A DNA stretch of 64,000 bases from NCBI RefSeq assembly GCF_013401555.1, contig NZ_CP058552.1, positions 3,844,001-3,908,000 of the forward strand, written 5' to 3'. The position numbers were made by a program, and so were the translations under genes. Origin of the DNA: Paenibacillus sp. E222 (lineage in GTDB: Bacteria > Bacillota > Bacilli > Paenibacillales > Paenibacillaceae). The notes beneath the pieces were generated by a model, which did no database searches, had not been told where the DNA came from, and worked only from the letters and a program-made list of their open reading frames with translations. Shown one piece after another: positions 31,230 to 36,781 of this stretch (position 1 is the stretch's first letter; each line of letters opens with the position of its first letter).

Positions 31230-32324
31230 ATGAAATTAAAAATTGCAATGATCGGTGTAGGGCTCATCGGCGGTTCATTGGCGCTTTGCTTTAAAGGCAA
31301 GCCCGGTGTAACGGTGATGGGCTATGCCCACCTGCCTGAATTGAAGGACAAGTACATAGCGAGTGGTGTAGTGGATGATGCTACACTCTCCCTGGAGGAA
31401 GCGGTACAGGATGCCGACTTTATTTTTTTGTGCGTACCTGTTGGGCTGCTCGAATCATATTTTGAACAGTTGGCCAAGCTTCCCTTGAAAAAGGGATGTA
31501 TCATTACAGATGTTGGCAGCACAAAGGCGTCCATCGCAGCCTGTGCGGAGCATGTACGCATGAGTGATGCCTACTTTATTGGCGGTCATCCTATGGCCGG
31601 ATCTGAGCGTGCAGGTGTGGATGCAGCCTCAGCTGTGTTATTCGAGAATGCATACTATGTCTTGACCCCTTCAGAATATGTACCTGAAGAAGCTTACGAC
31701 AGGTTATCTGATCTTCTTGCGTATACACGTGCCCAGATTGTTCGTGTAGAGCCGCTGCTGCACGATGACATTGTGGGAGCGATCAGTCATTTGCCACATG
31801 TCATTGCAGTTGCGCTCGTCAATCAGGTGCGCGAATATAATGAATCGAACCCTTTATATAAAATGCTGGCTGCAGGCGGTTTCCGGGATATTACCCGGAT
31901 TGCCTCCAGTGATGCCATTGTATGGAGAGATATCCTGCTGAGCAACCGTGAGGTGCTGCTGGGCTTGCTGAAGGACTGGAACAGCCAGATGACGGCTTTC
32001 ACTGAAATGCTGGAGCAACAAAATGGTGAGGGCATTGAGGAAGCGTTCCGTCAGGCACGCGAGTTCCGCAGCGTGCTGCCAGAACGTCGGAAAGGTATGA
32101 TCTCGTCGTTGTTTGATCTTTATACGGATGTGCAGGATGCGCCGGGAATGATCGGCAAGATTGCCACCGAGCTTGGGGCGAATGATATTAACTTAAGCAA
32201 CATGGAAATTATTGAAAACCGGGTCGATGTGCCGGGCATTATGCGTTTGTCGTTCCGGCAGGAAGAAGAAATGGAACGGGCCAAAACGTTGCTGGATTCC
32301 CTGGGGTATCAAGTATGGGTTTAG
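31230..32324 (+). CDS. tyrA: Prephenate dehydrogenase with ACT domain
   Basis: TyrA oxidatively decarboxylates prephenate to 4-hydroxyphenylpyruvate for tyrosine. The 364-aa protein has the NAD-binding GVGLIGGSLAL, DVGSTKASI, GGHPMAGSERAGVDAA and AISHLPHVIA. A C-terminal ACT domain of about 70 residues, including MIGKIATELGANDINLSNME, probably binds tyrosine for feedback inhibition. A terminator follows, closing the aromatic supraoperon. aroA (EPSP synthase), which follows tyrA in B. subtilis, is absent here. Confidence 0.96.
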   Translation: MKLKIAMIGVGLIGGSLALCFKGKPGVTVMGYAHLPELKDKYIASGVVDDATLSLEEAVQDADFIFLCVPVGLLESYFEQLAKLPLKKGCIITDVGSTKASIAACAEHVRMSDAYFIGGHPMAGSERAGVDAASAVLFENAYYVLTPSEYVPEEAYDRLSDLLAYTRAQIVRVEPLLHDDIVGAISHLPHVIAVALVNQVREYNESNPLYKMLAAGGFRDITRIASSDAIVWRDILLSNREVLLGLLKDWNSQMTAFTEMLEQQNGEGIEEAFRQAREFRSVLPERRKGMISSLFDLYTDVQDAPGMIGKIATELGANDINLSNMEIIENRVDVPGIMRLSFRQEEEMERAKTLLDSLGYQVWV

Positions 32325-32332
32325 GTTTTTGA

Positions 32333-32356
32333 AAGGGGGCGAAAGCCCTCTTTTTT
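32333..32356 (+). terminator. Terminator of the aromatic supraoperon
   Basis: AGGGGGC-GAAA-GCCCTCTTTTTT. The stable GAAA tetraloop and T tract make this a strong terminator. Confidence 0.9.
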
Positions 32357-32399
32357 ATGTTGAAAACCGTCTGTTACAGGATATGTCCTAAAAAAGGAC

Positions 32400-32483
32400 A
32401 AAAAAAAGACCGCTTACATAAGCGGCCATTGCTCACGTGGAGCAATACAGTTATTGGATAGGAGTGGAGAGAAACCATACTGT
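32400..32483 (-). ncRNA. Candidate small RNA with a CU-rich loop and its own promoter and terminator
   Basis: Read on the reverse strand, a consensus promoter is followed by about 84 nt and a strong terminator, with no ribosome-binding site or complete ORF. Predicted folds: a 5' hairpin TACAGT/ACTGTA exposing a loop with TTTCTCTCCACTCCTATCC; a second hairpin ATTGCTC/GAGCAAT; and the terminator GCCGCTT-ATGT-AAGCGGT with eight Ts. The CU-rich loop could pair with Shine-Dalgarno sequences such as GGAGAGA or AGGAG, as in several known Firmicute regulatory RNAs. It does not match a family I know. Confidence 0.75.
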
Positions 32484-32489
32484 ACTTTT

Positions 32490-32518
32490 ATTATATGTAT
32501 ACGTTTTCATTTTGTCAA
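32490..32518 (-). promoter_or_regulatory. Consensus promoter of the small RNA
   Basis: On the reverse strand, TTGACA (32513-32518) and TATAAT (32490-32495) are both perfect and are spaced by exactly 17 nt. This is the best sigma-A promoter noticed in the window. Confidence 0.9.
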
Positions 32519-32789
32519 CACTTTGAGTAAAATTGTTTAAAATAATTATAACATTCGTAAATTAAGGAAATATAATCCTTGCTTAAAGTGGAATTGATCC
32601 TTATTTGGACAATTGCATGGTAACGAAATTCTTCTGAAATTTTAAATTAATTCTTTATTCGCATAAACTTTTTGAGGCTTTCGTTCGTCCAATATAATAG
32701 TGGCTTCACAAAAGGGATCAAATTGAAGTCATGGACGAGAAAATGGCTGCATAATAATGACTGGTCGGGCTTCAATGGAAGCCATGGAT

Positions 32790-32933: not shown

Positions 32934-33008
32934 GTGCCTGTTCGGTAATACATGGATAGAGTCGAACGGGGAGAAGCACATGGATGGGCGAGGAGGGGTC
33001 GCACTCAA

Positions 33009-33602
33009 ATGACGGATTCCCAGTTGATTCGAGAGATCAAGGAAGGTAACCTAGAGTTATATTCCGAGCTGATGAGTCGTTATCAGCGTAAAATACTGGC
33101 TTTCGTATATCATATGTTGAAAAGTTCTAATATGGAGCTGCTTGCGGAAGATCTCTGTTCTGAGACTTTCTATAAGGCGTTCCGCAGTCTGCACTCATTC
33201 CGAGAGGTGGATGCCTCGTTCTCAACCTGGTTATATACCATTGCGAGAAATACGGTATTGAGTGAGCTTCGCAAACAGCGTAGTGGGAGTGTTCCACTTG
33301 AAGAGAGCGGTATTGTACCTGTTGCTCCTTCTGAGAATGCGCCAGAGCATGCTGTATTGCGCAGTGAGCGGGTGATGCTGGTTAGGGATGCAATTAACAA
33401 TTTACCGGAGAAGCAGCGTTCTGCCATTATACTCCGTGAGTATGATCAACTAGATTACCAGGAGATTGCAAATATTCTTGGGCAGAGCGTTAGTTCTGTG
33501 AAATCGTTATTGTTCAGAGCAAGATCAAGCGTAAAAACTCAATTGGAACCTTATTTCTTCGAACCGGTCTACGAGCCATATGAAGGGATGAAGAACCGAT
33601 GA
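33009..33602 (+). CDS. RNA polymerase sigma factor, ECF-like
   Basis: A 197-aa sigma-70 family protein with region 2 (YQRKILAFVYHMLK, AEDLCSETFYKAFRSL, FSTWLYTIARNTVLSELRK) and region 4 (NLPEKQRSAIILREYDQLDYQEIANILGQS with a helix-turn-helix). It lacks regions 1 and 3, as ECF factors do. The ATG at 33009 is chosen because AGGAGGGG lies 10 nt upstream. It overlaps the next gene, a zinc-finger anti-sigma factor, by 4 nt. The target promoters are unknown. Confidence 0.9.
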   Translation: MTDSQLIREIKEGNLELYSELMSRYQRKILAFVYHMLKSSNMELLAEDLCSETFYKAFRSLHSFREVDASFSTWLYTIARNTVLSELRKQRSGSVPLEESGIVPVAPSENAPEHAVLRSERVMLVRDAINNLPEKQRSAIILREYDQLDYQEIANILGQSVSSVKSLLFRARSSVKTQLEPYFFEPVYEPYEGMKNR

Positions 33603-36230: not shown

Positions 36231-36274
36231 AGGACAAGTTGCTAAAATCACTCCCAAATTAAGGAGTGATACTT

Positions 36275-36781
36275 ATGATAATTCCATACAAAGGTATGCA
36301 ACCCCAGTTACACCCTTCGGTATATATGGCTGAAGGCGCCAAACTTATAGGTGATCTGACAATGGGTGAAGAATCTACGATCTGGTTCAATGCTGTGCTG
36401 CGCGCCGATCTGGCACCCATTGTGATTGGACGGCGCTGTAATATACAGGATAATGCTGTTGGGCATGTCAACACGGATCAGCCTTTGATTTTGGACGACG
36501 ATGTGTCGGTGGGGCATTCTGCGATTATCCATGGATGTCGTATCGGAACAGGTTCGCTGATTGGTATGGGCGCTATCCTACTCAATGGAGCCGAAATTGG
36601 TGAATATACGCTGATCGGGGCCGGTTCTGTTGTTACTGAAAATACTAAAATACCGCCTTATACTCTTGCTTTGGGCACACCAGCCAAAGTGATACGTGAG
36701 TTGACTGACGCAGATCTTGAGCGGATGTCGAGAACTACACTAGGTTATGTTGCCAAAGGAAAGGAGTATAGGAGCTCTTAA
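36275..36781 (+). CDS. Gamma-carbonic anhydrase family / acyltransferase-fold protein (YtoA-like)
   Basis: A 168-aa left-handed beta-helix protein made of hexapeptide repeats. The three zinc histidines of the gamma-carbonic anhydrase family are in place: NAVGHVNTD, and VSVGHSAIIHGC with two. RADLAPIVIG and GMGAILLNGAEIG are typical. Whether it hydrates CO2 or does another reaction is unknown; most bacterial homologues are untested. AAGGAGTGAT lies 5 nt before the ATG at 36275. Confidence 0.88.
   Translation: MIIPYKGMQPQLHPSVYMAEGAKLIGDLTMGEESTIWFNAVLRADLAPIVIGRRCNIQDNAVGHVNTDQPLILDDDVSVGHSAIIHGCRIGTGSLIGMGAILLNGAEIGEYTLIGAGSVVTENTKIPPYTLALGTPAKVIRELTDADLERMSRTTLGYVAKGKEYRSS

Follow-up and report, generated by a model that had tools for sequence, protein, structure and literature searches.

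RsaI (RsaOG) of S. aureus is described as repressed by CcpA while glucose is present and derepressed upon starvation, and as blocking translation by pairing with the Shine-Dalgarno sequences of glcU_2 and fn3K (PMC9266662). RosA (S345) of B. subtilis is portrayed as a stand-alone CcpA-repressed small RNA (sRNA) (PMC8216469), and RsaE/RoxS as a central-metabolism sRNA of wide distribution (PMC4409812). In 2015, RsaE was called the only trans-acting sRNA besides 6S RNA known to be conserved between S. aureus and B. subtilis (PMC4409812). For P. riograndensis, RNA-seq is reported to have yielded 27 intergenic small RNAs, most with no known function (PMC5670726). Do other Bacilli carry an RNA of comparable reach? 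The candidate described here lies in the window, a stretch of 64,000 nucleotides from Paenibacillus sp. E222, and may be among those 27.

On the reverse strand, the gene lies in the gap from tyrA (31230-32324, +) to an ECF-type sigma gene (32952-33602, +). These two neighbours are taken from the ORF list and named by eye; the features of the gene itself are collected in Table 1. The original prediction of a perfect TTGACA-17-TATAAT promoter, about 84 nt of RNA and a terminator was borne out: the promoter (32518-32490, -) matches the consensus at 12 of 12 positions, and the RNA closes on a stem followed by eight T. This promoter is also the top of nine promoter-like sites between 31500 and 33500 on both strands, where shuffles have 3.6 on average (sd 1.9). 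Folding of 32483-32400 gives -24.4 kcal/mol against -13.05 (sd 2.51) in 200 shuffles, none of which was as low (z -4.52), and the predicted fold has three hairpins: one at the 5' end, in which the loop UUUCUCUCCACUCCUAU stays unpaired, one in the middle and that of the terminator. Two stretches of the loop, UCUCUCC and CACUCCU, are of anti-Shine-Dalgarno type. No closed ORF was expected inside the RNA, and the frame from ATGGTTTCTC indeed runs through the terminator (34 aa, 32478-32374). At gathering score, Rfam 15 families gave no match in the whole window or in 15 homologous loci. Among the papers listed by an open-access literature search, none was recognised as describing this RNA, and short strings of the 5' block led to two unrelated papers only. 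The tiny gene adjoining tyrA very probably encodes a real sRNA.

Table 1. Features of the predicted sRNA gene in the window.
Feature	Position	Strand	Basis
-35 element TTGACA	32513..32518	-	read from sequence
cre (CcpA operator) ATGAAAACGTATACATA, fills promoter spacer and touches -10	32494..32510	-	perfect consensus match; putative binding
-10 element TATAAT	32490..32495	-	read from sequence
Predicted small RNA, about 84 nt	32400..32483	-	start placed from -10 position, end from T run
Near-invariant 5' block ACAGTATGGTTTCTCTCCACTCCTATCCAA	32454..32483	-	conservation in family loci
Apical loop UUUCUCUCCACUCCUAU, 17 nt, two anti-Shine-Dalgarno stretches	32458..32474	-	unpaired in predicted fold
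Second hairpin ATTGCTC-CACGT-GAGCAAT	32428..32446	-	predicted fold
Intrinsic terminator, 8-bp stem and eight T	32400..32427 (stem 32427-32408)	-	terminator scan

How widely is the gene distributed? A DNA search of the family with 141 nt of the gene found a match in all 394 genomes and all 19 genera. For the order, a 19-mer with at most one mismatch matched 286 of 296 genomes and 46 of 48 genera (reversed pattern, 4 genomes); for the class, a 21-mer with at most two mismatches matched 157 of 398 genomes and 67 of 145 genera (reversed pattern, 0). The apical loop makes up the core of both patterns, which were found across order and class. A by-eye check covering the fetched class matches removed the one in genome G801, which looks like part of a coding gene, leaving 156 of 398. 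Most genomes possess a single copy, and seven have two matches. Named holders among the matches listed (at least 118 stretches) include Paenibacillus, Cohnella, Brevibacillus, Aneurinibacillus and Thermoactinomyces, along with Shouchella, Halalkalibacter, Fictibacillus, Marinococcus and Geomicrobium. A locus found by pattern is bound to contain the block. Evidence for the block's invariance therefore comes from the family search, from 50 family loci (the 30 best hits and 20 chosen for diversity) and from the many exact rows where mismatches were allowed. The 28-mer ACAGTATGGTTTCTCTCCACTCCTATCC is exact in 50 of these 50 loci, and the first 30 columns of a 22-sequence alignment are identical while the remainder is variable, the second hairpin differing in sequence between genera. 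By these searches, the predicted sRNA family is spread over much of the class Bacilli.

The position of the gene is likewise constant. Of 227 loci (near-duplicates kept), 208 have tyrA, hisC or aroA (EPSP synthase) no more than about 1.8 kb away, the usual site being the end of a trp-hisC-tyrA(-aroA) cluster; in 12 of the remaining loci the sigma gene is the sole neighbour of the four, and in 7 all four are missing. Cluster and RNA share a strand in 160 loci, the RNA coming after the cluster; in 48, the E222 locus among them, the two point towards each other. Constant neighbours combined with two orientations suggest a family inherited in place whose orientation changes. The four f37 copies, with two block matches per genome, have none of the usual aromatic neighbours in the stretch available.

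A loose promoter pattern was found in 175 of 205 distinct homologous loci (TTGACA in 146 and TATAAT in 162 of the 175), and a terminator hairpin in 203 of the 205, with 165 different sequences; in the two loci scored without one, a hairpin is visible by eye. With its variable hairpins unaligned, the 22-sequence alignment gave no more than 3 invariant pairs on consensus folding, and the terminator was therefore tested by anchoring on the T run. Across the hairpins found, each of the first seven pairs of the terminator stem occurs as five or six pair types: this stem changes while pairing is kept, whereas the 5' block TATGGTTTCTCTCCACTCCTATCC barely varies. The stem closing the loop across the class is GG/CC, often AUGG/CCAU or longer (GUAUGG/CCAUAC, UAAUAUGG/CCAUAUUA). 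It is weakly supported by an arm-swap test, in which 42 pairs outside the Paenibacillus type gave -5.8 versus -5.3 kcal/mol swapped (0 of 50 swaps as low) and all 147 pairs gave -4.44 versus -4.32 kcal/mol (at least 1 of 20 swaps as low). Compensatory changes had been anticipated in three stems; the terminator stem has them, while statistical support for the loop-closing stem is weak. The 5' hairpin retains its predicted CU loop, but its ACAGU/ACUGU stem is not kept across the class and a short GG/CC stem stands in its place. The larger proposal, a compact stand-alone sRNA gene with a CU-rich loop, had been tied beforehand to a refutation test, the conservation of promoter, loop and terminator in relatives, and all three recur in related species. 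Since related genomes combine an own promoter, an intrinsic terminator and non-coding content with a conserved unpaired CU-rich seed, we read the RNA as a stand-alone sRNA family of its own within a known kind, the trans-acting anti-Shine-Dalgarno sRNAs.

What controls this promoter? Overlooked in the original prediction, a perfect cre by the consensus WTGNAARCGNWWWCAWW fills the promoter spacer. We scanned 184 distinct loci from -70 to +115 of the block (185 nt) on both strands, and 1,686 windows taken from these loci served as controls. A perfect cre occurs in 126 of the 184 and one with a single mismatch in 31, together 157, versus 0 perfect and 2 single-mismatch sites in the control windows. 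Among Paenibacillales it is mostly the promoter spacer that contains the site; in two Shouchella and in Marinococcus it is near the -35 box, in the f37 copies farther upstream, and in Brevibacillus, some Halalkalibacter and others inside the terminator hairpin. The retention of cre despite its shifting position between lineages argues for selection on CcpA control. In the 16 loci where cre was noted within the terminator hairpin, transcripts would carry the CcpA operator in their terminator. No cre with at most one mismatch was found in 27 of the 184 loci, several of which have two-mismatch sites. Such loci include the f21 (Aneurinibacillus) and f58 copies, Fictibacillus, Geomicrobium and some Pseudalkalibacillus, as well as Thermoactinomycetaceae (Thermoactinomyces, Melghirimyces and Seinonella). 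Twelve f21 Aneurinibacillus loci keep the RNA, the block and the neighbourhood with no recognisable cre, and control may have changed there.

Judged by the operator, the sRNA is very probably under CcpA control, and we infer that it is repressed by CcpA and expressed without glucose. The promoter is as ideal as originally claimed, but constant high expression need not follow, because a perfect CcpA operator overlaps it. Upstream of the promoter, TTATAATTATTTTAA (32537-32551, -) resembles a PerR box; the stretch varies in relatives, and the likeness is probably due to chance.

Which mRNAs might the loop address? Start regions were searched with GGAGTGGAGAG in 30 genomes and AGGAGTGGA in 12 genomes, with reversed patterns as controls. 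Before a start codon, GGAGTGGAGAG matched 46 times (reversed control, 17) and AGGAGTGGA 231 times (reversed control, 77). Among the matches examined, 30 of the 46 and 70 of the 231, the genes were scattered, and across genera only aroG recurred, in three genera (genomes G436, G231 and G000); the other repeats were an ABC ATPase shared by two Brevibacillus and pairs that stayed inside a single genus. The aroG gene, named by eye, encodes chorismate mutase-DAHP synthase. Of 51 distinct aroG start regions, 26 contain GGAGTG, 12 GGAGTGGA and 1 AGGAGG; among 249 neighbouring genes the respective numbers are 13, 0 and 53. The set includes the discovery genomes, comes from related rather than independent genomes and concerns a gene picked after the fact. 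Pairing energies are lower for aroG start regions (Mann-Whitney p 2e-5); one of ten shuffled seeds gave a stronger effect on the same set, and when 24 gene families are ordered by pairing energy, aroG comes only 4th. We consider it reasonably likely that the loop pairs with Shine-Dalgarno regions; aroG is the best single lead to a target, albeit a tentative one, and its control would be in keeping with the aromatic genes nearby and with PEP consumption.

Other candidates were considered. The GGAGAGA proposed as a pairing site is present before trpD, but a special role for this gene was not supported: its start region came 22nd of the 46 scored by a simple gene caller in the window. A search of the E222 genome for a long complementary target (24-mer, G-U allowed, at most 3 mismatches) returned 6 places in addition to the gene itself: one was the start region of an amylase-like gene, and the others were mostly intragenic and unconvincing. 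In a gamma-carbonic-anhydrase-like family (named by eye; 36262-36778 in the window and homologues), GGAGTGGA occurs in 0 of 19 start regions and GGAGTG in 10 of 19, the latter making the family another possible target.

How would such an RNA work? In sugar-replete cells, CcpA with its corepressor would occupy the cre, located within or next to the promoter, and so keep the RNA off. Once the preferred sugar is exhausted, CcpA would leave and the consensus sigma-A promoter would make the RNA of about 84 nt. Its 5' hairpin would present UUUCUCUCCACUCCUAU to Shine-Dalgarno regions such as AGGAGUGGA, GGAGUGGA or GGAGAGA, and pairing would block translation of several mRNAs. If aroG is among them, its lowering during gluconeogenesis might spare PEP and erythrose 4-phosphate, both consumed by DAHP synthase. 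A CcpA-repressed trans-acting sRNA of its own family, pairing with Shine-Dalgarno regions, appears to be the best explanation as a whole, with a probability of roughly 0.7.

Part of the evidence could be accommodated by other readings. Other LacI/GalR-family regulators bind cre-like sites, and the element may be the operator of such a repressor or a byproduct of promoter sequence, in which case the RNA would not report carbon through CcpA. The 27 of 184 loci with no good cre site fit this idea, but the consensus matched perfectly in 126 of 184 is that of CcpA, and the site is kept as its position shifts, even into the terminator; we regard this reading as improbable. A block so constant could also mean a single conserved partner, so that a conserved sRNA has its block held by a protein or a partner sRNA; the RNA would then serve as a decoy or supply the C-rich half of a pair of sRNAs. 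RosA and RsaI are described as CcpA-repressed sRNAs that bind other sRNAs (PMC8216469, PMC9266662), and CsfG, with similar CU-rich stretches, is reported to co-purify with Hfq (PMC3574147). Known sponges, however, are of the G-rich type while this block is of the anti-Shine-Dalgarno type, and no conserved partner RNA for it came to light in the searches described here. This reading is unlikely, but it is the foremost of the alternatives.

Could the transcript instead be a small mRNA or the locus a mere terminator region? The block opens with ATG, and at the E222 locus a 34-aa frame (MVSLHSYP...) is open. That frame has no ribosome-binding site, and the block is invariant at third codon positions too; across 201 loci, the frame from ATGGTTTCTC ends anywhere from codon 8 to codon 39, is open in 51 and lacks its ATG in 3. 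A peptide-coding function is thus highly improbable. We give equally little weight to the idea that the locus is just a two-way terminator for the tyrA operon. It would account for the constant position at the cluster end, but tyrA has its own terminator-like site (32331-32354), the RNA occurs in both orientations, with the cluster in 160 loci and against it in 48, and a plain terminator requires neither a promoter nor an invariant 5' block.

The CcpA-repressed sRNA that we favor would represent a family that rivals RsaE in reach but in other Bacilli, Paenibacillus, Cohnella, Brevibacillus and Halalkalibacter among them; it has no Rfam match found, a likely regulator acting on it and a near-invariant working end. 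Post-transcriptional carbon control thereby becomes open to testing in groups that serve agriculture and enzyme production, and a clear evolutionary question arises from the lack of RsaE/RoxS in genomes with this RNA. The RsaE/RoxS covariance model, RF01820, has no match in the E222 genome. Among 60 chosen genomes, none of the 34 with this RNA had a match to it, as against 16 of the 26 without the RNA, 11 above cut-off; RF01821 (RsaH) was found in 1 of the 60, and the block with at most 2 mismatches was not found in the sampled RsaH-carrying family f19. In the class sample, RF01820 matched 112 of 398 genomes (82 above cut-off), its sole overlap with the 157 being G801, under strict filters that lose weak matches. 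Set against the 156 genomes that remain, it is present in 0 of 156 with this RNA versus 112 of 242 others, leaving 130 with neither. Fisher's test gives 1e-30, a value that ignores ancestry and may represent very few evolutionary events.

How does this RNA relate to those already described? RsaE/RoxS, like the loop here, has C-rich regions able to pair with Shine-Dalgarno sequences (PMC4409812); no CcpA operator is described for it in the literature covered, whereas this RNA has cre at its promoter. RosA is presented as a G-rich sponge for the C-rich RoxS and FsrA (PMC8216469), whereas this RNA is itself CU-rich, with no sponge-like G run in its 84 nt by eye. Nearest in shape is CsfG, a small RNA reported from spore formers, whose CU-rich stretches are conserved and which is transcribed from the strand opposite to the RF00516 ylbH leader (PMC3574147). 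The reverse complement of the RF00516 consensus has a pyrimidine stretch that starts GGUUUCUC, as in this RNA by eye. RF00516 matches the antisense strand of the sRNA gene (32398-32500, +) at 17.8 bits, where the gathering score is 50 (E 0.14 and 0.047), which is short of significance; on 7 other loci it gave no match at E 0.05 or better, and a CsfG-like string had no hit in the 2.24 million bases examined. The ylbH-leader model seems to be built on the strand opposite CsfG (PMC3574147), so that searches would report CsfG-like RNAs on the wrong strand. CsfG sits at ylbG-ylbH, whereas this RNA lies by tyrA, hisC or aroA; CsfG is also described as differing in its forespore control, for which a sigma-F/sigma-G promoter would be expected; the promoter here is a 12 of 12 sigma-A match. 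Kinship between the two is possible.

In its proposed working, this RNA most resembles RsaI, the likeness being one of mode of action. RsaI is described as having two G-rich regions (PMC8216469), which this RNA lacks by eye. As no Rfam family matches here, we treat RsaI as a separate family. Spot 42 of Escherichia coli offers a more distant parallel, an sRNA under a carbon-catabolite regulator that extends the regulator's reach post-transcription; it is controlled by CRP-cAMP in the opposite sense, and its sequence is unrelated. Speculatively, the RNA described here might be an ancient CcpA-wired carbon-starvation sRNA of Bacilli, kept near-unchanged and lost or replaced by RsaE/RoxS toward Bacillus subtilis and Staphylococcus. 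Two unrelated anti-Shine-Dalgarno RNAs would then hold the same post, with CsfG as a sporulation-specific sister.
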